The notes under the pieces: model-generated
The model's input: only the letters and a program-made list of their open reading frames with translations
Database searches by the model: none
Told to the model about the DNA's origin: nothing
Source: Streptomyces sp. NBC_00690
Lineage (GTDB): Bacteria > Actinomycetota > Actinomycetes > Streptomycetales > Streptomycetaceae
Reading direction: 5' to 3'
Length of the DNA: 64,000 nt
NCBI RefSeq assembly: GCF_036226685.1
Contig: NZ_CP109009.1
Location: forward strand, 8,211,501 to 8,275,500
Made by a program: the position numbers and the translations under genes
Shown: one piece after another, positions 31,878 to 47,206 of the stretch
How the letters are laid out: each line of letters opens with the position of its first letter
Numbering within the stretch: position 1 is the stretch's first letter

Positions 31878-33122
31878 TCAGCGCCCCACCGTATCCGCGT
31901 GGGCTGGGTCATCGGGGTAGAGCAGGGTCAGTCGACCGCCTTCGTCCAGCGGTGTCGGAACCGTCAAGGTGGTGCGCTGATCCGGTCGGTCCGCGTCCAC
32001 GAGTTCGATCTCGCCATGACCCCCTCGGGTGACGGCGATGAGTGAACCGGCGGGGGAAGCGGCAATGGCCCTGCGCTGGACGCCGTCCCAGGGTGTTGTG
32101 CCCTGCTGTGGCGCGCCCGACATCGCAGGCAGGGCGATTCGTGCGCTGATCCGGGGGGACTGTCCTGGCTCGACCAACACCAGTTCGTCGCCGTCGGGAT
32201 GGACCCGGGCATAGGCGATGTGCCGGGCGGCGACAGCCAGCCGAAAGACCAGCCCAGGGCCGAGCGGCAGCCGACCGGTGCGGCCCGAGTCGAGGTGGTG
32301 CCACCAGGCGTCGTTGTCCCACCGGTGCCACTGGTCCGGCTCGGGCGGACCGCTGCGGATGCCGGACCAGAGCAGCCGTCGGGCTGGATCGAGTCGCAGA
32401 TAGTATCCGCGACCAGGTCCGATCCAGGGGAGAGGGGCTTCCGGCACCAGATCGGCACCCTGGTAGCGCACCCGGTGGACGCCCGAGCCCGCCGCCGCGA
32501 ACAGGCGCCGGGTGTGCGGGTCATGGGCGTCGCCGTGCCCGTCGTCGTCCGGTAGGGAGAGGGTCGATCGCGGCTCGGGACGCGGGCAACCGGGCGTGGC
32601 GCCCAGTACATCGGTGTGACGGTACGCGGCCAGCAGTCCCGGCTCCCGGTGGCGCAGCACGATCAGTGGGTCCTCGGAGCCGGTGAGTGTGACGCCGGGC
32701 TCGCCCGTGCGCGCTCGAAAGCGCACCGCGTCCGGTCGACCGGGCGGCCTGAGGTCGACCGCGGTCACGAGGTCCGACCATGCCTCTGCGTGGTGGCCGA
32801 GTCCGGTGGTGACGGCGAGGCGACTGCCGGTCGGATCGGCCGCTAGGTGCTCGGCTGGCACGGCGACCGGCACCGTCGTTTCGATCAGTGGTCGTCCGTG
32901 GGCCGGGCCGTACGGGTCCAGGACGATCAGTTCGCCCGCCCGGTCGTCGACGAAGGCCGTGCGGCTTCGGGGGAGGGCGAGGAAGCCGGCGTGTTCGGCG
33001 AGATGGCGTCCGTCGACGACCGAACTCTGCTGGCCGTCGGGCAGGTTGAGGACCCTCAACGATCCGGCGACCTGGTCGGCGACGACCAGGAGCGGGGACA
33101 GGGACACGGAAGACCTCCACAT
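31878..33122 (-). CDS. Beta-propeller protein, Zur box upstream
   Basis: 414 residues from an ATG at 33122, which leaves the Zur box outside the gene. It has repeated beta-blade segments (GSLRVLNLPDGQQ, GELIVLDPYGP, DELVLVEPGQSP, GEIELVDADRPDQ), as in YncE/WD40-like propellers. There is no signal peptide or membrane helix. The sequence is His-rich, with DDDGHGDAHDPH as one cluster that could bind zinc. It diverges from the metallophore-type importer, with a Zur operator 8 bases upstream of its start codon, so it should be made under zinc starvation. Its function in that response is not known. Confidence 0.7.
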   Translation of the reverse strand: MWRSSVSLSPLLVVADQVAGSLRVLNLPDGQQSSVVDGRHLAEHAGFLALPRSRTAFVDDRAGELIVLDPYGPAHGRPLIETTVPVAVPAEHLAADPTGSRLAVTTGLGHHAEAWSDLVTAVDLRPPGRPDAVRFRARTGEPGVTLTGSEDPLIVLRHREPGLLAAYRHTDVLGATPGCPRPEPRSTLSLPDDDGHGDAHDPHTRRLFAAAGSGVHRVRYQGADLVPEAPLPWIGPGRGYYLRLDPARRLLWSGIRSGPPEPDQWHRWDNDAWWHHLDSGRTGRLPLGPGLVFRLAVAARHIAYARVHPDGDELVLVEPGQSPRISARIALPAMSGAPQQGTTPWDGVQRRAIAASPAGSLIAVTRGGHGEIELVDADRPDQRTTLTVPTPLDEGGRLTLLYPDDPAHADTVGR

Positions 33123-33130
33123 CGGCTTTT

Positions 33131-33145
33131 TGGTAATGATTATCA
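33131..33145. promoter_or_regulatory. Zur box 1 (divergent)
   Basis: TGGTAATGATTATCA fits the streptomycete Zur consensus TGNNAATGATNNTCA at every fixed base as a 7-1-7 palindrome. It lies between the beta-propeller gene and the importer lipoprotein gene and should repress both when zinc is plentiful. Confidence 0.85.
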
Positions 33146-33188
33146 TGTGGCACTATCGCACTCATCGACAAGAAGCCCGGGGGGACCC

Positions 33189-34175
33189 ATGCTCCGTAGA
33201 ACATCACTCACCGTGCGCAGGCTGGCACTGGCCGCTGTTGCGGCCGTGGCACTCGCCGGCTGCAACACCACCACCGAACCAGCGACAGACGGCAAAGCGG
33301 ACAGTGGATCGAAGACCGAGGTCACGGTCCGCCCCATCGAAGCCGCCCGCAGTGTGACCGATGCGCGCGGTGTCACCGTGACCACACCGGAACCGCCGCA
33401 ACGCATCGTCTGCCTCGTCGCACTCTGCGACGACATGCTGACCGAGTTGGGCATGACGCCCACCGCCAGCAACTCCCGCCTCCTCGCCCACGACAAGTTC
33501 CTCGGGCCGGCCAAGGCCGCCCAAGTACCCGTGGTGCCCGGCGGGTTCCTCAGCCCCGAGGTGGAGGCGGTCCTCTCCTTCAAGCCCGACCTGGTTATCG
33601 GTCTGAAGGACACCCACGGCAAACTCGCACCTGCGCTCAAGGGCGCGACCGTCTTCTGGCCGGTACAGCCCGAGACCTGGCAGCACAGCGTGGGATACCT
33701 GCGCGATCTGGCCGCGCTCACCGGACGCACCGCACAGGGGGAGAAGGCTGAGGGGGCATTCCGGCAACGGCTCGCCACCGCGGAGGCCGACCCCAGCGAA
33801 CGGACCGCCCTCGTGATGTACGGCAACGACGAGAACTTCGGTGTCGCCGCCCCCGGTTCCGATGTCACCGCCGGTCTCTTCCCGAGGATCACCCGGTATC
33901 CGTGGGAGAGCCGGGGGATCGAAGGGACCTACAGCATGGAGGAGATCCTCGCCAAGGACGTCGACGTCCTGTTCGTCGAGACGCTCTCCTTCGGCGGCCC
34001 CGCTAAGGCCGGGGAGCGGCTCTCCGACAAGCTCGCCAAGAACCCCCTCTGGTCACGCATCCCCGCGGTGAAGAACGGCAAGGTCATCGAGGTCGACCCC
34101 GAGGTATGGGCCAAGGGCCGTGGCACACGGTCGTTGGGCATCGTCCTCGACGAGGCCACGGCCGCACTGCGGTGA
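33189..34175 (+). CDS. Metallophore-binding lipoprotein (BtuF/FecB-like)
   Basis: 328 residues from an ATG at 33189. The lipoprotein signal is RRLALAAVAAVALAGC, acylated at the Cys. The mature domain is a class III binding protein (PPQRIVCLVALCDDMLTELGM, VEAVLSFKPDLVIGL, VDVLFVETLSFGG), the type that binds siderophores, haem or cobalamin chelates rather than bare zinc. It lacks the His-rich loop of ZnuA-type zinc proteins. It is first in a coupled operon with two permeases and an ATPase. With a Zur box upstream, its ligand is probably a zinc-loaded chelator. Confidence 0.88.
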   Translation: MLRRTSLTVRRLALAAVAAVALAGCNTTTEPATDGKADSGSKTEVTVRPIEAARSVTDARGVTVTTPEPPQRIVCLVALCDDMLTELGMTPTASNSRLLAHDKFLGPAKAAQVPVVPGGFLSPEVEAVLSFKPDLVIGLKDTHGKLAPALKGATVFWPVQPETWQHSVGYLRDLAALTGRTAQGEKAEGAFRQRLATAEADPSERTALVMYGNDENFGVAAPGSDVTAGLFPRITRYPWESRGIEGTYSMEEILAKDVDVLFVETLSFGGPAKAGERLSDKLAKNPLWSRIPAVKNGKVIEVDPEVWAKGRGTRSLGIVLDEATAALR

Positions 34176-35182
34176 CGGCCCCACAACCCCCGTCCCGGGC
34201 GGCCCTTCGCCCCTTGGTGCTGGTCGGGTTGCTCATGGTGGCGGCGCTGGGGACCCTGTGTCTGGGCACCCCCAGGCTGTCCCCCGCCGAGCTTCCTGCC
34301 GCGCTCGGCGGCGACGACCTCGCCGGGGTCGTCCTGACCGAACTGAGAATGCCCCGGCTCGTGCTCGCCGTCGTGGCCGGTGCCTGCCTCGGGGCGGCCG
34401 GGCTGGTCCTCCAGGAGGCGCTGCGCAACCCGCTGGCCGTACCGGAGATGCTGGGAGTGTCCTCAGGCGCCGCCCTCGGTGTGGCAGCCCCGCTCGTACT
34501 CGCCGTGACGGTTCCGGTCGTCGTCGAACCGCTTCTGGCGCTGGCCGGCGCGGTGGTGGGCGGTCTGCTCACACTGGTGGCCGGAGGGTTCGGGCGCAGC
34601 CCATCGGCTGTGCTGTTGACCGGCGCCGCCGTGACCGCTGCACTCCAGGCCGGGCTGCTCGTCCTGATGGTGCTCGCGGACCAACTCGACCTCCAGCTCA
34701 TCTACCGCTATCTGCTGGGCAGTCTGGCATCGCGCACCTGGGACGATGTCACGGGGCTGTGGCCCTGGCTGGTCGTGGCAGTGCCGGCCCTCGTGTTGTG
34801 CGCGCCCGTCCTGTCCGTCCTGCGCCTCGGCGATGACGAGGCGCGTGCCCTCGGTGTGCGGGTGCGGTGGGCGCGGCTCGCGGCCCTCGCCATCTCCATC
34901 CTTCTCATCGCGCCCGTGGTCGCCGTCTGTGGACCCGTCGCCTGGGTCGGCTTCCTTGCACCCCACCTCGCCCGGCAGTTGGCCCCGCACACCACGTCCG
35001 TCGGTTGGCTGCCGTGGTCGGCGCTCCTCGGAGCGATCACCGTGGTGCTGGCCGACCTACCCGCACGGCTCGCCCTCGCCCCCGTGGAAACCCCGGTGGG
35101 CGCCTGGACCGCACTGTTGGGCGTGCCGGTGGGCGTGGTGCTGCTGCGCAGGGGCCGCAGGGTCGTGGAGGAGAGCCGATGA
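34172..35182 (+). CDS. FecCD/BtuC-family permease 1
   Basis: 336 residues from a GTG at 34172 overlapping the lipoprotein stop. It has about nine to ten hydrophobic helices with the family segments RMPRLVLAVVAGACLGAAGLVLQEALRNPLAVPEMLGVSSGAALG and VCGPVAWVGFLAPHLARQL. These occur in the permeases for iron-siderophore and cobalamin uptake. It is expected to pair with the next permease as a heterodimer. Confidence 0.9.
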   Translation: MTAPQPPSRAALRPLVLVGLLMVAALGTLCLGTPRLSPAELPAALGGDDLAGVVLTELRMPRLVLAVVAGACLGAAGLVLQEALRNPLAVPEMLGVSSGAALGVAAPLVLAVTVPVVVEPLLALAGAVVGGLLTLVAGGFGRSPSAVLLTGAAVTAALQAGLLVLMVLADQLDLQLIYRYLLGSLASRTWDDVTGLWPWLVVAVPALVLCAPVLSVLRLGDDEARALGVRVRWARLAALAISILLIAPVVAVCGPVAWVGFLAPHLARQLAPHTTSVGWLPWSALLGAITVVLADLPARLALAPVETPVGAWTALLGVPVGVVLLRRGRRVVEESR

Positions 35183-36237
35183 AGTCATCAGCGCCTTCGG
35201 TACGCCCTTCTCTCCTTCGTTCACTTCCGGCCGCTGTCGGGCTGGGCGTACTCGGTCTGCTCGTTGTGGTCGCCGGGTTGGCAGGGCTGGTCTCCGGCCG
35301 GGCGGTCGACCTCCCCGTGGTGCGGGAGGTGCTGTCGGGCGGTGGTGATGCCACCGCCCGACACGTCGTCCTCCAACTCAGGCTGCCACGCGCCCTCGTG
35401 GCCCTGGGCGCGGGTGCGGCACTTGGCCTGGCGGGTGCCGTCCTCCAGTCCGCGCTGCGCAATCCACTGGCCGGCCCGGAGGTCACCGGGGTCACCCCGG
35501 GCGCGGTGCTCGGTGCCGTCGCCGCCACCGGCCTGGGGCTCGCGGGTTGGGAGGATCCCGCCGCGGTGGTGGTCGCGGCCTGTATCGGTGGTTTCGCCGG
35601 CGCCGGGCTGCTGTGGCTGCTCGCCGGACGGGAGCAGGGGGACCCGGTCCACACCGCGGTGTACGGCGTTCTCGCCTCGGCGGTGCTCTCCGGGCTCACG
35701 GCGATGATCCTCCTGGTCGCACCGGGGGAGTTGGGCAGCATCGTGCAGTGGCTGGTCGGATCGACCGAGGGGCGGGTCTGGGAACACTGGCACCTGCTCT
35801 GGCCCTGGACCCTCCTTTGGGGTCTCTGCGCCTTTGCGCTCGCCGCTCCGCTCACATTGCTGCGCTGCGGCGATGAACAGGCCGCAGCAGCTGGGCTCGC
35901 GACGGGTAGGGCCCGCGCTGCCGCCCTGGTGTGCGCGGTGGCCCTGACCGCCGGTGCGGTTCCCGCCGTGGGCGCGCTTGGATTCGTCGGTCTTCTCGTC
36001 CCTCACCTGGCGTTCGCCCTGTTCGGAGCCGATCTGCGGAGCGCGCTGCCCGGCGCTGCGCTGTTGGGCGCCCTGGTGGTCGGTGGTGCGGACGCGGGAG
36101 CCCAATGGCTCTCCCGGGTGCTGGCCGAGGTGTTGGGCTCGGACCGGCTGAGCATTCCGGTGGGCGCATTGACCACGGCCGTCGGTGCCGCCCTGCTGCT
36201 GGTCGTGGCCCGCCGTACCGCAGGGGTGCAGGAGTGA
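35179..36237 (+). CDS. FecCD/BtuC-family permease 2
   Basis: 352 residues from an ATG at 35179 overlapping the previous stop (ATGA). It repeats the family landmarks (RLPRALVALGAGAALGLAGAVLQSALRNPLAGPEVTGVTPGAVLG and VGALGFVGLLVPHLAFALFG). Together with permease 1 it forms the channel, energised by the ATPase that follows. Confidence 0.9.
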   Translation: MKSSAPSVRPSLLRSLPAAVGLGVLGLLVVVAGLAGLVSGRAVDLPVVREVLSGGGDATARHVVLQLRLPRALVALGAGAALGLAGAVLQSALRNPLAGPEVTGVTPGAVLGAVAATGLGLAGWEDPAAVVVAACIGGFAGAGLLWLLAGREQGDPVHTAVYGVLASAVLSGLTAMILLVAPGELGSIVQWLVGSTEGRVWEHWHLLWPWTLLWGLCAFALAAPLTLLRCGDEQAAAAGLATGRARAAALVCAVALTAGAVPAVGALGFVGLLVPHLAFALFGADLRSALPGAALLGALVVGGADAGAQWLSRVLAEVLGSDRLSIPVGALTTAVGAALLLVVARRTAGVQE

Positions 36238-36320
36238 TCCCCCCACCAGGGCCCGCAGGGGCGCGGGGCGATGTGAGCGTGTCGAAGGCGGCGATCCGGC
36301 GGCCGGGTGAGGAGGAAGCC

Positions 36321-37199
36321 ATGACCACGAAGGACTCCGATGCGGTACGGGAGGGAAGGGCTGAGGTGATCGACAGCGGCAGGGTACGGGCCGAAGGTCT
36401 GCGCTTCGGATACCCGGGCCGTGAGGTGCTGTGCGGTGTCGACCTCGATGTGGCGGCCGGTGAACTGGTCGCCCTGATCGGCCTCAACGGCTGTGGCAAG
36501 AGCACCCTGCTGCGGCTGTGCGCCGGGCTGTTGCGGCCCGCATCGGGGACGGTGCGGATCGACGGCGCGGACGTCGGTCGGCTCTCCCGACGGGCCACGG
36601 CCCGACGGGTGGCCCTGCTCCATCAGTCGGCACCACCGGTCCCCGGTATGACAGTGCGTCAGCTCGTGCGGCAGGGGCGCTACGCGGCCCGTGGTCCGCT
36701 CGGCATGCTGCGCGATGCGGACGATGCGGTGTGCGCACGAGCCATGGCGGACATGGGGGTGACTTCCTGGGCCGAGCGACCGGTGGACGCCCTGTCGGGC
36801 GGTGAGCGTCAACGGGTGCGGTTGGCGATGGCACTGGCGCAGGACACCAGGGTCCTGCTGCTCGACGAGCCGACGACCTATCTCGACCTCCGACATCAGT
36901 TGGAGGTGATGGAGATGGTGGTTCGGCTGCGCGAGGAGCGAGGTCTGACCGTGGTCATGGTCCTGCACGACCTCGGCCATGCGGCCCGCTACGCCGACCG
37001 GATCGTGGCGTTGCGGGATGGTCTGGTGGTGGCGGACGGCGCTCCTGGGGCGGTGGTGACACCACGCCTGCTGGCCGATGCGCTGGGCGTGTCCGGTCGG
37101 GTCGGGATCGACCCGGTGGGCGGCTGGCCGGTGTGTTACCCGGATCACCCTCTGCGATCCGAGCATTCAGTCTTGAAAAATGACAATCATTTTCACTAA
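36321..37199 (+). CDS. Metallophore ABC importer ATPase (FepC/BtuD-like)
   Basis: 292 residues from an ATG at 36321, preceded by GAGGAGGAAG; a GTG at 36234 overlapping the permease stop would add 29 residues. Walker A is GLNGCGKST, then the Q-loop LLHQSAPPVPGMTVRQLVRQGRY, signature LSGGERQRVRLAMA, Walker B LLLDEPTTYLD and switch HDLGHAARYADR, all intact. The last codons, encoding NDNHFH, overlap the second Zur box, so the end of this gene doubles as the operator for the peptide operon downstream. The C-terminus is rich in His and Asn. Confidence 0.9.
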   Translation: MTTKDSDAVREGRAEVIDSGRVRAEGLRFGYPGREVLCGVDLDVAAGELVALIGLNGCGKSTLLRLCAGLLRPASGTVRIDGADVGRLSRRATARRVALLHQSAPPVPGMTVRQLVRQGRYAARGPLGMLRDADDAVCARAMADMGVTSWAERPVDALSGGERQRVRLAMALAQDTRVLLLDEPTTYLDLRHQLEVMEMVVRLREERGLTVVMVLHDLGHAARYADRIVALRDGLVVADGAPGAVVTPRLLADALGVSGRVGIDPVGGWPVCYPDHPLRSEHSVLKNDNHFH

Positions 37200-37202
37200 G
37201 AT
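37173..37202 (+). promoter_or_regulatory. Zur-controlled promoter of RiPP operon (Zur box 2)
   Basis: TTGAAA (37173-37178) and TAAGAT (37197-37202) form a -35/-10 pair with an 18-base spacer. TGACAATCATTTTCA (37181-37195) fits the Zur consensus, read on the complementary strand, and fills the spacer exactly. Zinc-bound Zur would exclude RNA polymerase. Confidence 0.82.
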
Positions 37203-37257
37203 GTTCGACATGGCAACGACCGTTGCTGCAAACACTGATGTATCGGAGGCTCAAACC

Positions 37258-37404
37258 ATGGAGCAGCACCAGGTGTTCACGCCGATCGCAGAGCCGGGCC
37301 AGCTCGCCCACCAGTCGGCCACCCACTCCAACGCCCTCGTGGAGAACCCGTTCGACGACCTGAACACGGACTCGGGCGCGACCGACACCCACGGCGACAA
37401 GTAG
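37258..37404 (+). CDS. RiPP precursor peptide (48 aa)
   Basis: 48 residues from an ATG at 37258 with CGGAGG seven to eight bases upstream. The N-terminal part (MEQHQVFTPIAEPGQLAH) is leader-like. The C-terminal part, PFDDLNTDSG then ATDTHGDK, has no Cys but holds Thr37, Ser39, Thr42 and Thr44 together with several Asp and one His. Ser/Thr can be cyclised by YcaO enzymes to (methyl)oxazolines, and Asp/His would favour metal binding. It lies directly downstream of a Zur-controlled promoter and upstream of a complete azoline-type enzyme set. No named precursor family was recognised. Confidence 0.78.
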   Translation: MEQHQVFTPIAEPGQLAHQSATHSNALVENPFDDLNTDSGATDTHGDK

Positions 37405-37414
37405 GTCCTGCGAG

Positions 37415-37448
37415 CGGGCCCGTCCGGCGCACCAACCGGGCGGGCCCG
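37415..37448 (+). terminator. Intercistronic hairpin after precursor gene
   Basis: A 13-bp stem (one G-U pair), CGGGCCCGTCCGG with CCGGGCGGGCCCG and an 8-base loop, starts 10 bases after the precursor stop and is followed by TTCCGTTCC. It probably stops most transcripts, giving excess precursor over enzymes, and may protect the short message. Confidence 0.65.
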
Positions 37449-37483
37449 TTCCGTTCCGTCCCCTCCCGTTCAGGAGACACACC

Positions 37484-38326
37484 GTGGCCACTGCCCCACG
37501 ACTCGCCCCCGGCACCACCCTCGTCACCGTCCCCGGGCGGGGGCTCGCCCTGCGCACACCCGACGGTGACTTCCTCCACGTCGACACCGCCGCCACCGAT
37601 CCGCAGGCGCTGACGGCCGCGCTCACCACGGGCGTGGCCGACCCCGATCCCGAACTCGACCGGCTCATCACGGCGTTCGAGCGAGCCGGGTACGCACGGC
37701 CCTCCAACACGGAACCCGTCGGACGGATCGCCGGCCGCACCGTTCTGCTGCTCGGAGACCCCCAACTCCTCGCCCCGCTCGACCGATTCGTCCGGGCCGA
37801 AGGCGGGCAGCCGCGCTCAGCGGCCCCCGCCGAACTCGCCGCACTGGGCCGCGGCCCCCGACGACCCCGTACCGCCGTCGTCTGGTGCCTCGACACTCCG
37901 GTCCCGCCCGGACTGTGGGACGAGGCCGACCACCTGCCCGCACGGGGGACCGCCTGGCTGCGCTGCCATCGCGAGGGGGCCCAGGTCTGGCTGGAACCGC
38001 TGGCCGACCGGCCGGGCGACGTCACCGCAGCACATGTCAGACGGCGCCGCCTCGCCGCCACCCCCGCCCACCGTGAGTTGGACGCCTACTGGCAGGGGCT
38101 GCGGACCCCCGAGACCGAGTCCCTGAGCACGGCCACATCCGCGGCCCTGATCGCCTCGCTGCTGACGGCCGACCTCATCGCCTGGGCGGCCGGCGATCCC
38201 GGGTCCGATGCGCTGCCCCTGCGGCGCAGACTGCGCAGGCTCGATCTGCGCGACCTCACCGTGACGCAACACCCGGTCCTGCCGGTTCCCGATGTGGCGC
38301 CACTCCCCGCCAGGACCGGGCCGTGA
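37484..38326 (+). CDS. TOMM leader-peptide-binding protein (ocin-ThiF-like)
   Basis: 280 residues from a GTG at 37484 with AGGAGA upstream. The N-terminal segment (LAPGTTLVTVPGRGLALRTPDGDF, then DPELDRLITAFERAGYARP) resembles the RRE-type winged-helix leader-binding domain of TOMM C proteins. The middle (IAGRTVLLLGDPQLLAPLDRFV) looks like a degenerate E1/ThiF Rossmann start. No E1 ATP-binding motif or zinc Cys pairs are seen. It would present the precursor leader to the YcaO enzyme. It overlaps the S15-type hydrolase by GTGA. Confidence 0.7.
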   Translation: MATAPRLAPGTTLVTVPGRGLALRTPDGDFLHVDTAATDPQALTAALTTGVADPDPELDRLITAFERAGYARPSNTEPVGRIAGRTVLLLGDPQLLAPLDRFVRAEGGQPRSAAPAELAALGRGPRRPRTAVVWCLDTPVPPGLWDEADHLPARGTAWLRCHREGAQVWLEPLADRPGDVTAAHVRRRRLAATPAHRELDAYWQGLRTPETESLSTATSAALIASLLTADLIAWAAGDPGSDALPLRRRLRRLDLRDLTVTQHPVLPVPDVAPLPARTGP

Positions 38327-39831
38327 TCACGAGCGTGCGCGTCCTGATGGACGACGGCGCCGCACTAACGGCCGATGTCTGTCTACCCGACTCCGACGCC
38401 GGTCCCCACCCTGCCGTGTTGCTCCGCACTCCCTACGGTCGACACAACCACCGCGCCGAGTTGCGAGCCTGGGCGGCTCATGGCTTCGCCGCCGTCGCCC
38501 AGGACGTCCGCGGCCGGCACGAATCCGAAGGCGACTGGCGTCCGTACCACCGCGAGGCCGCCGACGGTGCCGTGACCCTGCGCTGGCTCCGCACCCGCAG
38601 GTGGAGCGCCGGTCCCGTCATCACGGTCGGCAGCTCCTATGCGGCCCACTGTGCCCTCACCGCCGCGCTCGACAGCGACCCGAGCGTCCGCGCCGATGCC
38701 GTCATCGCCGCGGTACCCGCGCTCGGTGCCAGCGCGACCGCCCGCGAACCCCACGGCCCGGAACGGCTGTTCTCCCGCGCCGGCTGGTGGGCCGCCCACG
38801 GCGACCGTCCCGACTCCGACCCCGACGCCCTCGACCGTGCGCTCGCCGCCGACCCCCAACTGCTGGCACACCTCCCCGTCGCCACCCTTCCCGAGCGCCT
38901 CGGACGTGCCCTGCCGTCCTGGCGCGGAGTGTGGAACGCCGAACACCCGGATCCACTGACGCCCGAGCGACTGCGGAGTGCCCGGGTGCCCCTGCTCGCC
39001 ATCGGCGGCACCCGGGACCCGTTCGCCCCGGACACCCACCGCCTGTGGCAGGAGTGGGGCGGCCCAGCGCGCCTCCTGATCGGCCCCTGGGGACACGGCC
39101 TCACCGCCGACCCCGGCCCGGAGGCCCGCCCGGGCCACCGACTCAACCTCGGCCGGCTCTATGTGCAGTGGGGACGCGCCGCCCTTGTCGGAGTACTGCG
39201 GAAGGGGCACCGAGGGGCGCTCGCCCTCGGCGGCAGCCGACTGTGGTGCCGCGCCACCGACCAACACACCGAGCTCGTATGGGACGTCGGCAGTGCGGAG
39301 GGGCCACGCGTCGTGCACGGGGCCGCGTTCGTCGCCGACCCCGTACGCCCCGTGCGCTCGGACCGGCTGGACGTGCCCGACACGGGAACCCCCGACCGCT
39401 GTCTGCTGCTGACCGCCCCCCTCGCCCGTCCACTCGACCTCCTCGGGCCGGCAGCGCTCCGCCTGAACGCCGTCGCCGATGCAACGCCGGCCGACTGGGC
39501 GGTACGGATCGTCACCCTCGATCCCGCGGGCACGGCAGCCCCGCTCGCCACGGCCGTCGTACGCCGCACCGACCCGCCCGGCACTGCGGCCAGCTTCACC
39601 GTTCCGCTCGGACAACTGGCCCGTCGGCTCCCCGCCCGCACCCGGCTGCGCATCGAGATCGCGGGCCACCACTTCCCCGCACACATCCGCCAGCCGCACA
39701 CCGGCGAGGACCCGGTGACCGCGACCCGTCTGCTCGCCTCGCACCGGACCGTACGACCCGACGGCAGCGCCCTCCTGCTCACCACGGGCCGCGGCCGAGG
39801 CGTCAATCCCGTACAGGAGATCTGCCGTTGA
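38323..39831 (+). CDS. CocE/NonD-type S15 hydrolase
   Basis: 502 residues from a GTG at 38323. The N-terminal alpha/beta-hydrolase domain has LLRTPYGRHNHR, the oxyanion-side AQDVRGRHESEGDW and the nucleophile in TVGSSYAAHCAL; the acid and base fall in IGGTRDPFAPDT and GPWGHG. A C-terminal jelly-roll domain (ALRLNAVADATPADWAVRIVTLDPAG, RLRIEIAGHHFP) completes the X-Pro dipeptidyl-peptidase/CocE fold. It lies between leader-binding protein and YcaO genes with overlaps on both sides, so it is probably a maturation enzyme: a leader or terminal peptidase, or an ester/amide hydrolase. No signal peptide is visible. Confidence 0.85.
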   Translation: MITSVRVLMDDGAALTADVCLPDSDAGPHPAVLLRTPYGRHNHRAELRAWAAHGFAAVAQDVRGRHESEGDWRPYHREAADGAVTLRWLRTRRWSAGPVITVGSSYAAHCALTAALDSDPSVRADAVIAAVPALGASATAREPHGPERLFSRAGWWAAHGDRPDSDPDALDRALAADPQLLAHLPVATLPERLGRALPSWRGVWNAEHPDPLTPERLRSARVPLLAIGGTRDPFAPDTHRLWQEWGGPARLLIGPWGHGLTADPGPEARPGHRLNLGRLYVQWGRAALVGVLRKGHRGALALGGSRLWCRATDQHTELVWDVGSAEGPRVVHGAAFVADPVRPVRSDRLDVPDTGTPDRCLLLTAPLARPLDLLGPAALRLNAVADATPADWAVRIVTLDPAGTAAPLATAVVRRTDPPGTAASFTVPLGQLARRLPARTRLRIEIAGHHFPAHIRQPHTGEDPVTATRLLASHRTVRPDGSALLLTTGRGRGVNPVQEICR

Positions 39832-41198
39832 ACACCCCACCACTGCCGCTGGACGCGCTCGTGGATCCCGTGTGCGGAATCGTGCGAGCCGTCGCACCCG
39901 TGGAACACCCATCAGGTGCCCCGCGCCGCTACACCGCCATGACCGCCGACGTCTGTGACGCCCGCCGTCTCGGAGCCTGGCCCGCCGACCGGGTGTCGCT
40001 CGGGACCACCTTCGGCGACCGGGCGGGCGCCGAACTCGCCGCCGTCGCCGAAGCGGTCGAACGGTACTGCGGCAACCGGCTGCCGCCCCCCGGCCACCCC
40101 GACGCGCCCCGTCGGGCCACCGCCGCCGAGCTGGCAGCCGAGGGCCTGAGCCTGTACGGCCCCGGTGAACTGCCCCGCTACGCCGAGTGGCAGTACAACC
40201 GTCCCGGCTTCCCCTACCAGCGCTTCGACACCCACACCCCGACACTCTGGGCCCGGGGCAGCGAAGAGGAACGGGAGTGCTGGGCGCCCGTCGCCCTCAC
40301 CCACCTCAACTGGCGGCAGGGCGAACTGCGGACCCTGCCGCGCACCCACCATCTGAACTACGCGGGCATCGCGACCGGTCAAGGACTCGACGACGCAGTC
40401 GAACGCGGACTGCTGGAGGTCGTCGAGCGAGACGCACTCGAACTGTGGTGGCACCTCGAAGGACCCGTGCGCGGCATCGATCCCGCCAGTGTCCCCGGCC
40501 TCGATCAGGCCCTGGAAGGCTGCCCCCTCGACGTATGGATCGTGGAGATGCCATCCGAGTTCGCGCCCTGCATGGCCGCACTGGTCCACGACCCCCGACG
40601 CGGCATCCACGCCGCGGGCTTCGCCTGCCGCTACGACCCCGCCGAAGCCGCCGTCAAGGCCGTCCTGGAAGCCGTGCACACCTGGGTCTTCACCCAGGGC
40701 GCCATGGATGTCGACGGGTGGGTGTTTCGCGCGATCGACGCCGGAATGCTCGCCCGCGGCCTCTACCTCGACCACCGCGCCGACCGCCGCTACCTCGACG
40801 ACTGCGGGCCCCAGTTCGAGCGGATACGCGACCTGGGCGCCCATGTCCAGGTGTGGCTCGACCCCCGGATGACTGCGTTGGCCAGCCGATTCACCGCCCC
40901 CGCCCTGGGCACCGTCGACATCGGGGACATCGCCCGGGGCACCCGCATCGCACTCGACGCCCGCCTCGCCGAAGGCGGCCATCGCGTCATCACCTTCGAC
41001 CTCACCACGGAGGACGTCGCCGAAACCGCCCTGCGCGTGGCGCGGGTCCTGGTCTCCGGCCTCATTCCCAACGCTCCCGCAGCCTTCGCCTATCTGGGCT
41101 GCGACCGCTTCACCGACGCGGCCCTCACCCGGGGCTGGCGCACCGCCGCCCCGACCGGCCCGGACGACTTCACCCTCGCACCACCCCCGCACATGTGA
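39828..41198 (+). CDS. YcaO-family cyclodehydratase
   Basis: 456 residues from a TTG at 39828 overlapping the hydrolase stop (TTGA). The ATP/Mg-binding elements of YcaO proteins are visible: GAELAAVAEAVERYCG, NYAGIATGQGLDDAVERGLLEVVERDALELWW and later EAAVKAVLEAVHTW. The C-terminus ends APPPHM, a degenerate form of the PxPxP tail typical of azoline-forming members. YcaO enzymes activate a backbone amide with ATP so that a Cys, Ser or Thr side chain can cyclise. Since the adjacent precursor has no Cys, oxazoline or methyloxazoline formation is predicted. It is coupled to a SagB-type oxidase gene. Confidence 0.88.
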   Translation: MNTPPLPLDALVDPVCGIVRAVAPVEHPSGAPRRYTAMTADVCDARRLGAWPADRVSLGTTFGDRAGAELAAVAEAVERYCGNRLPPPGHPDAPRRATAAELAAEGLSLYGPGELPRYAEWQYNRPGFPYQRFDTHTPTLWARGSEEERECWAPVALTHLNWRQGELRTLPRTHHLNYAGIATGQGLDDAVERGLLEVVERDALELWWHLEGPVRGIDPASVPGLDQALEGCPLDVWIVEMPSEFAPCMAALVHDPRRGIHAAGFACRYDPAEAAVKAVLEAVHTWVFTQGAMDVDGWVFRAIDAGMLARGLYLDHRADRRYLDDCGPQFERIRDLGAHVQVWLDPRMTALASRFTAPALGTVDIGDIARGTRIALDARLAEGGHRVITFDLTTEDVAETALRVARVLVSGLIPNAPAAFAYLGCDRFTDAALTRGWRTAAPTGPDDFTLAPPPHM

Positions 41199-42538
41199 CC
41201 GCCGCCGTGACCCACGCAGACGCAACGCACTCCATCACCGCCGCCCTCACCCGAGCGCGCTCCGTCGAGCAGCCCACCGAAGGCACCCCTGCCCCGCGCC
41301 ACCGACCGACCGGGCCGAGCACCACGCTCCCGCCCGAACTCGACCGCGTCCTACGACACTCCCTCGCCGCCGGCCCCGGCGGACGGCTGCGCCCCGTACC
41401 GTCCGCCGGGGCGCTGCACCCCGTCGACGCACATCTCCTCGTCGGCCCGGGCAGCGCGCTACCGGCCGGCCGCTACGCGTACCACCCGCTCACCCACCGC
41501 CTCCACCGACGCGGCCCGGCGCCCTCCACCGCGCCTCCCGGCACACTCGCCGTCCTCACCGCCACCGTCGAGCCGACCGCCGCCCACTACGGACACCGCG
41601 CCTGGCCACTGTTGCTGCTCGACATCGGGCACGCGGCAGCGGCACTCGCCCTCGGAGGCTGCCCGGCCGTATGCCTGGACGCCCCCGGCCCACTGCTGGC
41701 CGCCGCCGCCCGCCTCGACGCCACCGACGCACCGCCGCTGGCGGCCGTACGCATCACGGCCGACTGCCCAACTGACGCCCTGCTGCGCTGGGCCGTCCGC
41801 GACGCGAACGACCCAACCGACCCGACCCACCCAATCGACCCAATCGACCGAACCGACCAACCGCCGCCCGCCCGCATCCGACCCGCGCGCCACGATCGGG
41901 GCGCCGACGACCCCAACGCCGGTGAACCCGCGGACACCCACCGGATCCTGTCGGCACTCGGCCAGCGCGCCGACACCCGGCACCACTGGCAGCCGACACC
42001 ATCCGTCGAGGTCCCCGAATCCGTGCTGCTCACCCGACGCAGCGCCACACCACCCCTTCTCGGAGCCCCGGACGACCGACAGTTGGTCACACTCCTGCGC
42101 GTGGCGGCGGCCGCCCACCCCGACGGCCCGTCCTGGTGCGCGGCCACCGGAGGGCCCCGACCTGCACTCGTGCACCTCGGGGACCACGGCCGACTCGAAG
42201 CCCTCGCCACCGGGGACGCCCGGCCCACCCTCGCCGTCTGGGCCGCCCGGCAGAGGTGGATCGCCACGACCGGTGCCGTGCTCCTCGCCCACGGCTGCCC
42301 CGACGACGCCCCACCCGCGCAGGTGCGCGCCCTCCACCAGATCGCGGGCTACGCCATGGGACACGCCCAACTAGCCGCCGTGTCCATGGGCCTGCGGTCC
42401 CGACCGATCGGCTCCTGGCAGCGCGCGGACCTCGGGGCAGCCATTGGCCGTGCACCCGGCCGCCACTGGGTGCTGCACGGCCTCGCCATCGGCCGCCAGC
42501 CCGACGAATGCCACGAAGGAGACGACGACCCCTCATGA
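41195..42538 (+). CDS. SagB-type nitroreductase-fold dehydrogenase
   Basis: 447 residues from a GTG at 41195 overlapping the YcaO stop (GTGA). It appears to be a tandem of two nitroreductase-like halves, as in long SagB-type proteins. The first has LRPVPSAGALHPVDAHLLV and the second SVEVPESVLLTRRSATPPL, with IGHAAAALALGG and IAGYAMGHAQLAAVSMGLRSRPIG as the FMN-fold helices. Such enzymes oxidise azolines to azoles with FMN. The halves are joined by a Pro/Asp-rich linker (DPTDPTHPIDPIDRTD). The presence of an oxidase implies aromatic (methyl)oxazoles in the product. Confidence 0.82.
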   Translation: MTAAVTHADATHSITAALTRARSVEQPTEGTPAPRHRPTGPSTTLPPELDRVLRHSLAAGPGGRLRPVPSAGALHPVDAHLLVGPGSALPAGRYAYHPLTHRLHRRGPAPSTAPPGTLAVLTATVEPTAAHYGHRAWPLLLLDIGHAAAALALGGCPAVCLDAPGPLLAAAARLDATDAPPLAAVRITADCPTDALLRWAVRDANDPTDPTHPIDPIDRTDQPPPARIRPARHDRGADDPNAGEPADTHRILSALGQRADTRHHWQPTPSVEVPESVLLTRRSATPPLLGAPDDRQLVTLLRVAAAAHPDGPSWCAATGGPRPALVHLGDHGRLEALATGDARPTLAVWAARQRWIATTGAVLLAHGCPDDAPPAQVRALHQIAGYAMGHAQLAAVSMGLRSRPIGSWQRADLGAAIGRAPGRHWVLHGLAIGRQPDECHEGDDDPS

Positions 42539-44343
42539 TGCTTCACCCCGAACTGCTGCGCGCAGCCCGCGTCGCACGCGGGCCACTCCTCGCCGCGACC
42601 GGCGTCCTGATCGCGGTGACCCTCACCCAGTTGGCGCAGGCGGTGCTGCTCGCCCTCGCCCTCGCCGACATCGCCCACGGTGACACCCATCGGCTCATCG
42701 TGCTCCTCGGTGGGGTCCTGGCCGTCGTCGTCCTGCGCGCAGCCCTCGTCCTCGTACAACGGGACCTCGCTGTACGGGCGGGCACACGGGTCCGCGTACA
42801 ACTGCGGGACACGCTCCTGGAACGTCTCGGGCGGCTCGGGGGGATCGCGGGAACCGTGGCACCCGGGGAGCCCGCCCGCGCCGGAGCCCTGCGGGCCACC
42901 CTCGTCGACGGCGTCGAAGGCGTCGACGCCTATGTCTCGCGCTACCTTCCCCAGGCCCTGGTGACCTGCTGCATCCCGCCCGCGCTGCTGGTGTGCGTCA
43001 CCGTCCTGGAGCCGCGGGCCGTCTTCGCGCTCGCGCCCGCGCTGCTGCTGGCCATCCTGGTGCCGCGCTGGTGGGACCGGTTGCTGAAGCGGCGCGGCGA
43101 ACAGCACTGGGGAGCGTACGAAGCCCTCGCCGCCGACTACCTCGAAGCCCTCCAGTCGATGCACGTTCTCCGGTCGGCCGGTGCCGTCGGACGCACCCGC
43201 GCTACCCTCGCCCGGCGCTCGGCGACCCTGCACCGCGCCACCGTCGCCAAACTGCGTGTGTCCCTCGTCGACACCGGGCTCACCGACCTCGCCGTCCAAG
43301 GCGGCACCATCGCCGCCGTCCTCGTCGCCTGCTGGTCCGCCGCGACCGGCCGGGCCACGGCCACCGGTACCTACCTCCTGCTGATGTTGGCGTCCGAGTG
43401 CTTCCGTCCCGTACGCGACCTCTCGCGCGAATGGCACGCCGGCTATCTGGGAGTGTCCGCCGCCGACGGAATCGCCCGGCTGCGCACCGCCACCGGAGGG
43501 GCCATCGACGCCGGCACCCGCAGCGCCTACTGGCCGCTGGCACCCGACGTCCGGTTCGACGAAGTCTCCTACCATCACCCGGGCGCCGCCCGGCCGGCCC
43601 TGACCGCCGTCACCTTCACCGCCGAAGCTGGGCGCACCACCGCGATCGTCGGTCCCTCGGGTGCGGGCAAGTCCACCCTGCTCGGCACGCTCCTACGCCG
43701 ACATGATCCCGACGGCGGTCAGGTGCTCATCGACGGCGTCGACACCCGCGACCTCACACTCGCCTCACTGCGGCAGGGAATCGCGGTCGTCTCCCAGGAG
43801 ACGTACCTCTTCCACGGCACCATCGCGGAGAACCTCCGCATCGCCCGCCCCCAAGCCCCCGACCTAGACCTCCACACAGCCGCCCGCACGGCCGGCATCC
43901 ACGACGAGATACGTCGGATGCCCCACGGCTACGACACCCTCGTCGGAGAGCGGGGCACCACCCTCTCCGGGGGCCAGCGCCAACGCCTCGCACTGGCCCG
44001 GGCACTGCTCGCCGACACACCCGTACTCGTCCTCGACGAAGCGACCAGCGCCGTCGACGAGAACCGACAGGCGCGCATCGGACAGGCCCTGCGCAACGCC
44101 GTACGGGGACGAACCTGCCTGGTCGTCGCCCACCGCCTCTCCACCGTGCGACACGCCGACCGCATCGTGGTCCTCCACGAAGGCCGGGTCGAGGCGATCG
44201 GCACGCACGACGAACTGCTCGCGACCAGCGATCTGTACGCGCGGTTGGTGACCGCCGACGGCCCTCGCGGCGGCGTGCTGCGCCCCGCTCCCGACGCGTC
44301 CACCACAGTCCCGCAACCCGTTCACCAGGGAGACGCCGCATGA
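42535..44343 (+). CDS. ABC exporter half-transporter 1 (CydD-like)
   Basis: 602 residues from an ATG at 42535, inside the end of the oxidase gene. Six membrane helices (about 15-310) precede an ATPase with Walker A GPSGAGKST, Q-loop VVSQETYLFHGTIAENL, signature LSGGQRQRLALARA, Walker B VLVLDEATSAVD and switch AHRLSTVRHAD. All catalytic residues look intact. The permease part resembles CydD and type I exporters. With the next gene it should form a heterodimeric exporter for the matured peptide. Confidence 0.9.
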   Translation: MMLHPELLRAARVARGPLLAATGVLIAVTLTQLAQAVLLALALADIAHGDTHRLIVLLGGVLAVVVLRAALVLVQRDLAVRAGTRVRVQLRDTLLERLGRLGGIAGTVAPGEPARAGALRATLVDGVEGVDAYVSRYLPQALVTCCIPPALLVCVTVLEPRAVFALAPALLLAILVPRWWDRLLKRRGEQHWGAYEALAADYLEALQSMHVLRSAGAVGRTRATLARRSATLHRATVAKLRVSLVDTGLTDLAVQGGTIAAVLVACWSAATGRATATGTYLLLMLASECFRPVRDLSREWHAGYLGVSAADGIARLRTATGGAIDAGTRSAYWPLAPDVRFDEVSYHHPGAARPALTAVTFTAEAGRTTAIVGPSGAGKSTLLGTLLRRHDPDGGQVLIDGVDTRDLTLASLRQGIAVVSQETYLFHGTIAENLRIARPQAPDLDLHTAARTAGIHDEIRRMPHGYDTLVGERGTTLSGGQRQRLALARALLADTPVLVLDEATSAVDENRQARIGQALRNAVRGRTCLVVAHRLSTVRHADRIVVLHEGRVEAIGTHDELLATSDLYARLVTADGPRGGVLRPAPDASTTVPQPVHQGDAA

Positions 44344-46127
44344 CCCCGTCCGCCGCTGACCGCCCGCACTCGGGCGCCCTGCGAGCGCTGCTGCCCGTCC
44401 TCGCAGCCCACCGGGCCATGACCCTGCGCACGTTCGCCGCCGCCCTGGTCGACCAGATCGCGCTCGTCGCCCTGGTCGCGCTCGCCGCGCACACGCTCGG
44501 CACCGCCGTCGTGGCGGGCACCCTGCCGGGCCCCGCCACCATCGGGCTGCTGCTCGGCCTCGTCGTGGTGCGCGCGCTGGCCACCTGGCGGGAGATGGAC
44601 CTCTCCCACGACCTCGCCTACCGCGTGCTGGCCGAACTGCGGGTCCGGGTCTTCGACGGGCTCGCCCGGAGCGCACCGGCCCGGATCGACGGCCGTCGCA
44701 GCGGGGACCTCGCCGCCGCCGCACTCGGTGATGTCGAGGCGCTGGAGTTCTTCTACGCCCACGCCATCGCCCAACTGGCCTCCTCCGTCCTGGTCTTCAG
44801 CAGTGGTGCCGCAGTCCTCGCCGCCGTCGAACCATGGCTGCTGGTGGTGGTGCTGCCGCTCGCCGCACTGCTCGCCCTGACTCCACTGCTGGACGGGCGG
44901 GGCCGCACCGAGCGCGGCACCAGAACCAGGACCGCAGCCGCAGAGCTCTCCGCCGATGCCGTGGAGACCGTGGACGGGCTGCCCGAACTGCTCGCCTTCG
45001 GCGGGTTGGAGGAGCGCCGGGAGCGACTGCGCCTGCGCGGCCGGCGGCTCGGCGACGCCCAGCGTCGTGAACACACCTGGGAGGCGGGGGCGGGAGCGCT
45101 GCGCGACCTCCTCGTGGTGGGGGCGGTCGTGGCTGTGGTGGCCGTCGTCGCGGGAGCGGTCGGCGCCGGTCGGTTGGGGGGCGCTTGGGCACCGACGGCG
45201 ATGGCGCTCGCTCTCGGTGTGCTGGCACCGGTCGCGGACTCGGCCGCAGCGCTGGGGCAGGCGGGTGGGCTGCGCGCCGCCGCCGCCCGGGTCGGCGCCG
45301 CGGTCCGTGCTCCCGCCGGGGCTCCTGAGCCCGTCGAACCGCGGACGCTGCCGCCCGGTCCGTTGGGGGTACGGCTACGGGGTGTCCGCTTCGACTACGG
45401 GGGCACGCGCGTCCTCGACGGCCTCGACCTGACCGTGCGCGCCGGTGAGACGATCGCCCTGGCCGGAGTGTCCGGGGCCGGCAAGTCGACCTGTGCTCAT
45501 CTGCTCGCCCGATTCTGGGACCCGTCCGAAGGCGCGGTGGAACTGCTGCCCCGCGACGGGGTCCCGGTGGACCTGCGCGAACTCGCGGAGTCCGACCTCC
45601 GCCGTGCGGTGGCCGTCGTCGGCCAGGACACCCCGCTGTTCCGCGGCAGTCTGGCCGAGAACCTTCGATTGGCCGCACCGGACGCATCCGAGGGGCGGAT
45701 GAGGGAAGTGGCGGCCCTGTGCGGGGTGGACCACATCGCCGCGGGGCTCCCGGACGGATACCGGAGCGCGGTGGGCGAGCGGGGCGCCACGCTCTCGGGT
45801 GGTCAGCGGGCCCGTATCGCCCTGGCCCGGGCGCTGTTGGCCGAACCTCGGCTCCTGGTCCTGGACGAGACGACCGCCCACCTCGATACAGAGGGCGATG
45901 AACAGATCGCGCACGCACTCCTCGCATCGGCTGGTGACCGTACGACGATCGTCATCGCACACCGCCCGGCCACGCTGCGGCGGGCCGACCGGATCGCGGT
46001 TCTCGCGGCTGGCCGCGTCGTGGAGGACGGGACGTGGGACACTCTCGTCTCACGGCCACAGGGCGCGCTGGGCCGGGTGCTCATCCACAGGGACACCGGC
46101 CACCACCGCAACGCGCTGACACCCTAG
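44340..46127 (+). CDS. ABC exporter half-transporter 2 (CydC-like)
   Basis: 595 residues from an ATG at 44340 overlapping the previous stop. The membrane domain (about 20-310) is followed by an ATPase with Walker A GVSGAGKST, Q-loop VVGQDTPLFRGSLAENL, signature LSGGQRARIALARA, Walker B LLVLDETTAHLD and switch AHRPATLRRAD. It is the last gene of the Zur-controlled operon, before a strong hairpin. A role as peptide exporter is inferred from position; the CydDC resemblance alone would suggest thiol export, but no cytochrome bd genes are nearby. Confidence 0.9.
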   Translation: MTPSAADRPHSGALRALLPVLAAHRAMTLRTFAAALVDQIALVALVALAAHTLGTAVVAGTLPGPATIGLLLGLVVVRALATWREMDLSHDLAYRVLAELRVRVFDGLARSAPARIDGRRSGDLAAAALGDVEALEFFYAHAIAQLASSVLVFSSGAAVLAAVEPWLLVVVLPLAALLALTPLLDGRGRTERGTRTRTAAAELSADAVETVDGLPELLAFGGLEERRERLRLRGRRLGDAQRREHTWEAGAGALRDLLVVGAVVAVVAVVAGAVGAGRLGGAWAPTAMALALGVLAPVADSAAALGQAGGLRAAAARVGAAVRAPAGAPEPVEPRTLPPGPLGVRLRGVRFDYGGTRVLDGLDLTVRAGETIALAGVSGAGKSTCAHLLARFWDPSEGAVELLPRDGVPVDLRELAESDLRRAVAVVGQDTPLFRGSLAENLRLAAPDASEGRMREVAALCGVDHIAAGLPDGYRSAVGERGATLSGGQRARIALARALLAEPRLLVLDETTAHLDTEGDEQIAHALLASAGDRTTIVIAHRPATLRRADRIAVLAAGRVVEDGTWDTLVSRPQGALGRVLIHRDTGHHRNALTP

Positions 46128-46161
46128 GGCCCGGCGAACCGTGCGGGGTTCGCCCCGGGCC
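46127..46161 (+). terminator. Terminator of RiPP operon
   Basis: GGGCCCGGCGAACC (46127-46140) pairs with GGTTCGCCCCGGGCC (46147-46161) with a two-base bulge and a short loop, overlapping the exporter stop codon. Confidence 0.65.
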
Positions 46162-46384: not shown

Positions 46385-46690
46385 TCACCAGGAGGACTTG
46401 GTGACCCCGGGGAGGAAGCCCGCGTGCGCCTGTTCGCGCATCCGTACGCGCGAGAGTCCGAACTTGCGCAAGTGGCCGCGTGGGCGGCCGTCCACGGCGT
46501 CACGGTTGCGCACCCGGGTCGCGCTCGCGTCCCGGGGTTGGCGCCGCAACTCCGCCACGGCTGCGCGCCGTTCGGCGTCGGAGGAGGAAAGGCGGCGGAT
46601 GACCTCCTTCAACTCCGCCCGTCGGACCGCATACCGGTCGACGATCGCCTTCCGCTTCTCGTTCTGCGCGATCTTGCTCTTCTTCGCCAT
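46385..46690 (-). CDS. rpsN: 30S ribosomal protein S14, zinc-free form
   Basis: 101 residues. [27 protein letters not shown] and [28 protein letters not shown] are typical of long S14 proteins. It has no Cys at all, so it lacks the CXXC zinc ribbon of the housekeeping form and works without zinc. It overlaps the L28 stop by one base. Together with L28, L33 and L31 here it makes the C-minus set that replaces zinc-containing paralogues when zinc is scarce, releasing zinc from ribosomes. Confidence 0.95.
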
Positions 46691-46926
46691 CAGACCTTCC
46701 CTCCTCGGGCCCGGATGCGGGCGACGGCCGCTTCGATGCCGATGCGGTCGATGGTCTTGATCGCCTTGGTACTGAGGGTGAGGCGTACCGAACGGCCCTC
46801 GCTCGGCAACCAGTACCGCTTGCGCTGGACATTGGGGTCGAACCGGCGCGAAGTGCGTCGATGGGAGTGGGAGATGGCATTGCCGAAGCCGGGTCGGGCT
46901 CCGCTCAGTTGGCAGTGTGCGGACAC
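46690..46926 (-). CDS. rpmB: 50S ribosomal protein L28, C-minus form
   Basis: 78 residues from a GTG at 46926 with AGGTGA upstream. [19 protein letters not shown] and the [21 protein letters not shown] core are standard L28. It has only one Cys, so it cannot form the four-Cys zinc site of the housekeeping paralogue. It is divergent from L33 across a promoter region with a Zur-like box, which would control both directions. Confidence 0.95.
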
Positions 46927-46971
46927 GGTCGACGTCACCTCGCCCTGGAAGATGTCACGGAAGGACTGCTT

Positions 46972-46999
46972 TTGAAAATGGAAACCATTCCCATATAGT
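46972..46999 (+). promoter_or_regulatory. Promoter of L33 operon with Zur-like box 3
   Basis: TTGAAA (46972-46977), 16-base spacer, TATAGT (46994-46999). The spacer holds TGGAAACCATTCCCA (46979-46993), which matches 11 of 15 consensus Zur positions and again fills the gap between -35 and -10. It is a weaker match than boxes 1 and 2. Confidence 0.6.
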
Positions 47000-47007
47000 A
47001 CAGCTCC

Positions 47008-47172
47008 ATGGCCCGCAACGAACTCCGCCCGATCATCAAACTGCGCTCGACCGCAGGGACCGGCTACACGTACGTCACCCGGAAGAACCGCCGCAACGAC
47101 CCCGATCGCCTGGTCCTGCGCAAGTACGACCCGATCGCCCGCGCGCACGTCGACTTCCGCGAAGAACGCTGA
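47008..47172 (+). CDS. rpmG: 50S ribosomal protein L33, zinc-free form
   Basis: 54 residues ([39 protein letters not shown]) without any Cys, hence the zinc-independent L33. No ribosome-binding site precedes the ATG, and the -10 hexamer ends only 8 bases upstream, so the message is predicted to be leaderless. It begins the plus-strand operon L33-L31-CobW-type protein. Confidence 0.94.
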
Positions 47173-47206
47173 CCCCCGACAACCGCGCTCCCCTAGGAGG
47201 CACCTC

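Follow-up and report, generated by a model that had tools for sequence, protein, structure and literature searches.

The window analysed here, 64,000 nucleotides of Streptomyces sp. NBC_00690 (assembly GCF_036226685.1, contig NZ_CP109009.1, positions 8,211,501 to 8,275,500), holds a gene cluster for a ribosomally synthesized and post-translationally modified peptide (RiPP) that, by sequence comparison, is clearly a member of the published streptamidine (ami) family and not a novel kind of RiPP cluster. The precursor scores 65.8 bits against the NCBIfam streptamidine model NF040714 (cut-off 40; the version scored was an in-frame one of 67 amino acids starting at 37201), and the gene order amiX, F1-F4, A, B, C, D, E, T1, T2 is identical to that given for the ami cluster of S. 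albidoflavus J1074 (PMC8442711; MIBiG BGC0002115). The streptamidine gene set as described in that article (FecBCDE-like importer, A, B, C, D, E, T1 and T2) is complete in the window, so that exporter and metal-chelate-type importer are both linked to the biosynthetic genes. The features are as follows, in window coordinates:

31878..33107, minus strand: amiX, beta-propeller protein, divergent from amiF1 (AlphaFold2 model and fold match to AztD)
33131..33145: Zur-type box 1, TGGTAATGATTATCA, between amiX and amiF1 (1 mismatch to the published motif)
33189..34175, plus strand: amiF1, substrate-binding lipoprotein (PF01497)
34172..35182, plus strand: amiF2, FecCD-type permease (PF01032, 240.5 bits)
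35179..36237, plus strand: amiF3, FecCD-type permease (PF01032, 221.6 bits)
36321..37199, plus strand: amiF4, importer ATPase (PF00005; top NCBIfam match FecE, under its cut-off)
37173..37202, plus strand: predicted amiA promoter, TTGAAA-18-TAAGAT (consensus scan)
37181..37195: Zur-type box 2, TGACAATCATTTTCA, predicted amiA operator, overlapping the last amiF4 codons (0 mismatches)
37258..37404, plus strand: amiA, precursor peptide of 48 amino acids without Cys (NF040714)
37309..37332, plus strand: predicted amiA core HQSATH (37309-37326), then Ser-Asn (alignment of 75 precursors)
37484..38326, plus strand: amiB, E1-like, leader-binding partner of YcaO (TIGR03882, 26.2 bits, under the cut-off of 36.9)
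38323..39831, plus strand: amiC, CocE/NonD (S15) hydrolase (TIGR00976, PF02129)
39828..41198, plus strand: amiD, YcaO (PF02624)
41195..42538, plus strand: amiE, SagB-like dehydrogenase (TIGR03605, 48 bits, under the cut-off of 78.4)
42535..44343, plus strand: amiT1, half ATP-binding cassette (ABC) exporter (PF00664 and PF00005)
44340..46127, plus strand: amiT2, half-ABC exporter (PF00664 and PF00005)

An earlier, sequence-only reading of this DNA had proposed a zinc-starvation island for a new azole RiPP; it passed over amiX, the name of the family and the adjoining ribosomal-protein genes (46385-48648). Its 48-residue Cys-free precursor is borne out, as are the genes of the seven-gene run from precursor to exporters; the 4-base overlaps said to join that run hold from amiB to amiT2 (taking 42535 as the amiT1 start), and 79 bases separate amiA from amiB. 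Further upstream, 83 bases lie between amiF3 and the amiF4 ATG, and an alternative amiF4 GTG start overlaps amiF3. The importer had been called BtuF/BtuC/BtuC/BtuD-type: its genes are present, and the named solved relatives of the AmiF1 profile are siderophore or iron-chelate binders, none of them named BtuF (the AmiF1 structure prediction, with a mean pLDDT, AlphaFold2's per-residue confidence, of 75.6 and a range of 51.9-75.6 over five models, was left out of the fold search). The claim of a new azole RiPP is not supported, since the cluster belongs to a published family whose characterised product, streptamidine, is a six-residue amidine without an azole (PMC8442711). The YcaO and the dehydrogenase score below the curated cut-offs for the azole class (thiazole/oxazole-modified microcins, TOMM; TIGR03604, 193.9 against 219.25 bits; TIGR03605, 48 against 78.4). 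Rfam and transfer RNA scans of the window gave no match.

Two Zur-type boxes flank the importer, as the sequence-only reading had stated. They were scored against the Zur motif obtained by chromatin immunoprecipitation (ChIP) in S. coelicolor, tGaNNatSatNNtCa (PMC5472717). Box 2 fills the 18-base spacer of the predicted amiA promoter, and a consensus scan gave no comparable promoter match at box 1.

To ask how general this arrangement is, loci encoding a relative of AmiD (159 in all) were collected and the best 80 kept; window AmiD is 74-82% identical (best segment) to their YcaO proteins. Of these, 74 hold amiA and form the named set, and six (L009, L027, L029, L035, L073 and L081) were left out because amiA was not in the stretch. 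With a box called as a match, at ≤1 mismatch, to the ChIP motif or to the published actinobacterial motif TGANAANNNTTNTCA within 260 bases upstream of amiA, 68 of the 74 named loci and 13 of 20 whole-genome loci carry one, compared with 0 of 1480 and 0 of 400 random windows from the same operons; the reversed motif was found upstream of amiA at 0 of the 74 named and 1 of the 20 whole-genome loci. A box also precedes amiF1 at 67 of the 68 loci holding that gene, a count that excludes four loci with a type II importer (see below) and two (L015 and L043) that start inside the importer. All 94 upstream stretches differ from one another. Among the 81 relatives with a box, TANNNT follows it directly in every one (shuffled flanks average 5.7), and a -35 TTG at 16-19 spacing spans it in 35 (shuffled, 0.1), so the box sits on the predicted amiA promoter with the geometry of a repressor site. 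In 62 of 63 relatives it begins inside amiF4; in S. albidoflavus NRRL B-1271 (L047; not strain J1074), which has both boxes (TGGCAATGATTATCA and TGAAAATCATATTCA), it occupies 7261-7275, with the amiF4 stop codon ending at 7279. The conservation of these predicted Zur-type operators across the streptamidine family is new here: the main text of PMC8442711 contains no mention of Zur, and no report of Zur control of the family was among the matches listed in the open-access literature, outside which most subscription journals lie. The family itself is broad: more than 230 streptamidine-like clusters were described in 2021 (PMC8442711), and the precursor was found here in 38 genomes out of the 295 from the genus, in 17 out of 384 (9 genera) from the class, in 5 out of 149 from a further family and in 3 out of 396 from the phylum.

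In the strain's own genome (9,169,300 bases, 2 contigs), the perfect Zur motif occurs seven times and a reversed control motif not once. Besides the amiA site, one perfect site falls in the divergent promoter region of the genes for an AztABCD zinc importer (AztA 247, AztB 378, AztC 395 and AztD 511 bits, all above cut-off), and znuA (ZnuA by Pfam) has a Zur-type site with one mismatch; the motif therefore marks zinc loci in this genome. A further perfect site (L101, C1:428759-428773) has two half-ABC genes on one side and, on the other, a gene for a nickel/CntA-like binding protein (scores below cut-offs); this is possibly another zinc-chelate importer. At another perfect site, L005, no zinc gene was seen. 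The AztABCD locus (L102:12217-15598) has, next to its clear AztD, a second AztD-like lipoprotein (62.7 bits, below cut-off). Of 26 FecCD matches, 24 are strong and fall into 13 loci; the other two are weak and correspond to the znu and azt zinc permeases. Among the 13 FecCD loci and the 6 YcaO loci, ami alone adjoins a listed Zur-type site, none being listed near the other 12 FecCD importers. A second locus combining a FecCD-type importer with a YcaO protein (L152, C1:4648001-4667900) has promoters without a Zur-type box, its single one-mismatch site lying within an open frame about 4 kb from the importer.

Linkage of the precursor and YcaO to a metallophore-type importer, also put forward in the sequence-only reading, was found at 93 of 94 loci (74 of 74 named, two of them cut by the contig start, and 19 of 20 whole-genome); the sole locus without it, L095, is at a contig end. 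Rearranged relatives provide what we regard as a stronger test of the predicted Zur-type control. In several genomes outside Streptomyces, amiX is directly beside amiA, mostly with a single box in the interval; the importer there is of a different type (type II: one FecCD permease, an ATPase and a substrate-binding protein (SBP)), which is also present in four Streptomyces. Of the type II importers that stand as separate units, all 10 tested carry a box at ≤1 mismatch, located 27-126 bases ahead of the point where the aligned permease begins. The test covered such separate units, as distinct from importers following amiX on the same strand, and counted the L096/L121 importer once. In the search for linked importers, the type II FecCD query was a reading frame taken from stop to stop, upstream residues included, and beyond L105 and its near relatives the majority of matches start inside the permease part of the query. 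At L118 a FecCD importer of another kind, encoded next door, has three mismatches at best. In another group (family f7: L108, L112, L146 and L147), importer, precursor, hydrolase and YcaO are kept in a reduced layout in which the permeases diverge from the SBP gene, and boxes stand at that promoter and at the amiA promoter in four of four loci; the precursor core differs, for example STHSAGHSNALV, and at L112 a major facilitator superfamily-type gene follows. Three extra loci found via YcaO (L145-L147) have a box in three of three, and a plasmid locus of Rhodococcus rhodochrous annotated as streptamidine family has TGACAATCGTTTTCA before amiA. The sequence-only reading had named YcaO homologues consistently lacking Zur boxes and importer as the pattern that would count against it; across the several actinobacterial families covered, boxes and importer were instead retained. 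Two further observations concern locus structure. A two-YcaO cluster (L148), in which no streptamidine-type precursor was recognised, has a FecCD importer and half-ABC exporters in divergent orientation, with a one-mismatch Zur-like box in the interval. One 3.5 Mb genome (G139) holds three ami copies with the same precursor (L094, L095 and L096), two of them on one 70 kb contig and one with a truncated amiX and without a box.

Of the 17 NF040714-positive genomes in the class sample, 15 carry the divergent gene amiX, and one genome without NF040714 gave a distant match to it. The amiX product is modelled with high confidence as a propeller (AlphaFold2, pLDDT 95.3), and the best solved fold match of the model is the zinc chaperone AztD, by which we class it as AztD-like in fold. 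His39 and His191 are invariant among 79 sequences, and His87, 153 and 303 are kept in ≥90%. A link by sequence was sought and rejected (the two AztD-like proteins of the own genome gave profile scores of 6-8 bits; the Protein Data Bank (PDB) matches were chance, to profilin), so the comparison of AmiX with AztD uses the fold alone. AztD is periplasmic or at the cell surface and hands zinc to AztC (PMC6689063), whereas the start of AmiX has no evident signal sequence and the AztD model does not recognise it; the shared traits are a modelled fold and, for the AztABCD locus of this genome, a perfect Zur-type box. An S9 prolyl-oligopeptidase-like gene stands beside amiX at L145:6912-8471 and at 14 other loci outside Streptomyces.

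Taken together, the conserved boxes, their retention after rearrangement, the importer linkage and the fold of AmiX strongly predict control by zinc starvation, and we judge Zur control of the ami cluster very likely.

What the cluster makes can be narrowed from the precursors. Given the match to NF040714 and the gene order, an amidine peptide is expected. The core H-x-S-A-(S/T)-H followed by SNALV is present in 75 of 75 precursors (window and named set), and GQLAH, SA, (S/T) and HSNALV around it are identical in all 75; core position 2 varies (Asp in 33, Leu in 27, Ala in 14 and Gln in 1, the window). In more distant precursors HSNALV is kept and the rest is variable. S. albidoflavus streptamidine has the core HLSATH, compared with HQSATH in the window, and the block GQLAHxSATHSNALVENPF of NRRL B-1271 is the same as in the window. 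From sequence, then, the product of the window is expected to be an amidine hexapeptide or an extension of it; HQSATH with an N-terminal six-membered amidine would give m/z 662.3005 ([M+H]+).

A longer product is suggested by an ion of m/z 414.69, which is left without assignment in the main text of PMC8442711 and, according to that article, was never seen in S. albidoflavus itself. It fits HLSATHSN from the NRRL B-1271 amiA minus two waters and two hydrogens, doubly charged (414.691), as the only fit among 67,392 combinations. We caution that a random peptide m/z matches some AmiA fragment in 45% of cases at a tolerance of 0.005 and 64% at 0.01, and that shuffled AmiA matches 414.69 in 65%; the fit is notable only because the fragment starts at the core His, for which random matches fall to 1.5% (0.005) and 2.8% (0.01). 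This octapeptide fit, with an amidine and an azole, is post hoc and suggestive. The fragment ends just before the conserved ALV and would give AmiE a product, and an azole may thus be present in a larger molecule than streptamidine. If, in clusters with amiE, streptamidine were a fragment of an octapeptide H-x-S-A-(S/T)-H-S-N carrying the N-terminal amidine and one AmiE-made azole, the ion, the need for AmiE and the lack of zinc binding by purified streptamidine would all be explained; that the family comprises widespread Zur-controlled ribosomal zincophores and that streptamidine is such a fragment is, as a joint proposal, tentative and rather doubtful.

The best single explanation of the locus, and in our judgement a likely one, if by a modest measure, is that the ami peptide acts as a zincophore. 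Zinc starvation would relieve repression at the boxes before amiF1 and amiA and switch the cluster on; the protein bound there would be Zur itself, given the published ChIP motif and the AztABCD and (at one mismatch) znuA sites that it marks in this genome. AmiB, AmiC, AmiD and AmiE would act as published for S. albidoflavus, and the small amidine peptide is predicted to be exported and to bind zinc outside the cell, perhaps through the two conserved histidines and the amidine and perhaps in a product longer than streptamidine. The zinc-loaded peptide would be re-imported by the siderophore-type importer of the cluster, after which AmiX, the AztD-like propeller, may receive the zinc. In other genera the S9 peptidase encoded beside amiX would, by analogy, break the re-imported peptide down, much as esterases release iron from siderophores.

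Several observations weigh against this explanation. Metal import had been suspected for ami and was not borne out by the assays of Russell and co-workers, who report that streptamidine bound no zinc or other metals by liquid chromatography-mass spectrometry, that it gave no chrome azurol S (CAS) signal and that under metal starvation an amiD mutant showed wild-type growth, and who suggest signalling or development instead (PMC8442711). A hexapeptide with two histidines is, moreover, a modest ligand. At 13 of the 94 loci no box was found at ≤1 mismatch; 12 of these have two mismatches to one or both motifs, and the best site of L096, the third copy in its genome, near a contig end and with a truncated amiX, has four. 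Most of the sampled loci are from Streptomyces and share descent. At the four f7 loci, tblastn detected none of amiB, amiE, amiX and amiT1/T2, which means that neither the exporter nor the dehydrogenase is a universal part of the cluster. AmiX has no NCBIfam match and no PDB sequence match to AztD, and the propeller is a common fold. Finally, one of the three FUR-family genes of the own genome follows znuA, znuC and znuB in the znu operon and scores 72.3 bits for Fur and 45.8 for Zur, both below cut-off; as the NCBIfam scores do not decide, the name Zur for this gene rests on its position. The published negatives may have reasons of their own: streptamidine may be a truncated molecule, and the strain may have had other zinc importers, as the present genome has Znu and AztABCD. 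Deletion of amiF1-F4 led to loss of the product (PMC8442711), which may be a promoter effect because the amiA box starts inside amiF4, including in S. albidoflavus.

The negative zinc-binding and growth assays, together with the authors' own suggestion of signalling or development, favour a Zur-controlled peptide that is not a chelator, namely a signal or a protective or interfering peptide of zinc starvation that the importer recaptures, and the support for Zur-type control is independent of chelation. We nevertheless consider this unlikely, because the near-constant partner of the peptide is an importer, the named solved relatives of AmiF1 bind siderophores or iron chelates, the separate importer units tested all carry a box, and the divergent amiX encodes a protein of zinc-chaperone-like modelled fold. 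That two importer types occur with the same peptide family also counts against the zincophore explanation and could mean that the importer takes up another zinc complex, such as a neighbour's chelator, with the peptide pathway merely co-regulated; the importer linkage is, however, tighter than co-regulation requires, and we give this reading a small chance.

The remaining alternatives bear on the boxes themselves. Since 7-1-7 boxes of Fur proteins are alike, and since the genome has three FUR-family genes of which the znu-operon one scores higher for Fur than for Zur, the boxes might be read by another Fur-family protein or serve iron instead of zinc. This is very unlikely, as the motif is the published Zur ChIP motif (PMC5472717) and marks AztABCD and znuA here, while the 12 other FecCD importer loci lack a listed site nearby. 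Iron control was also examined directly and rejected: DmdR/IdeR-type boxes are absent at both promoters (8-11 mismatches of 19 to the iron consensus, against a background of 8-12). An ordinary azole (TOMM) antibiotic cluster with incidental boxes, a reading that the YcaO, E1-like and SagB-like dehydrogenase proteins might invite, is not adopted, the precursor being a member of the streptamidine family; antibacterial or antifungal activity of streptamidine was not detected (PMC8442711), and box conservation far above background largely refutes this reading, leaving it scarcely credible.

Directly after amiT2 lies what appears, by gene content, to be a Zur-type ribosomal island:

46385-48648: genes for S14 and L28 (minus strand) and for L33, type B L31 and an MRF/CobW-like GTPase (plus strand)

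Zur represses such ribosomal paralogues in S. coelicolor (PMC5472717). A scan of the window found no Zur motif at ≤1 mismatch between rpmB2 and rpmG2; an imperfect inverted repeat was seen by eye near 46974, between the minus and plus halves of the island. Among the 65 loci whose flanks are complete, 18 have S14 and L28 genes in the ami flanks, arranged in at least three ways, and a box precedes an MRF-like gene at L146, where S14 lies further along. Among known metallophores and RiPPs, methanobactin is a copper-binding RiPP metallophore that differs from ami in metal, chemistry and enzymes, and bottromycin is an antibiotic. Klebsazolicin, which blocks translation, and bottromycin are YcaO-made amidine RiPPs like streptamidine (PMC8442711). 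The coelibactin locus of S. coelicolor shares the trait of Zur-type control, being a Zur-repressed secondary metabolite locus and proposed zincophore (PMC5472717), and differs in that coelibactin is a putative nonribosomal peptide (PMC3430247), whereas the ami peptide is ribosomal.

The conserved Zur-type operators predict the condition under which the more than 230 clusters would be expressed and open a direct way to test it, and they offer possible reasons why earlier work was negative: a truncated molecule, the other zinc importers of the strain, and an importer deletion that perhaps removed the amiA promoter. If the proposed zincophore role is true, the streptamidine family would be a ribosomal class of zinc metallophores.

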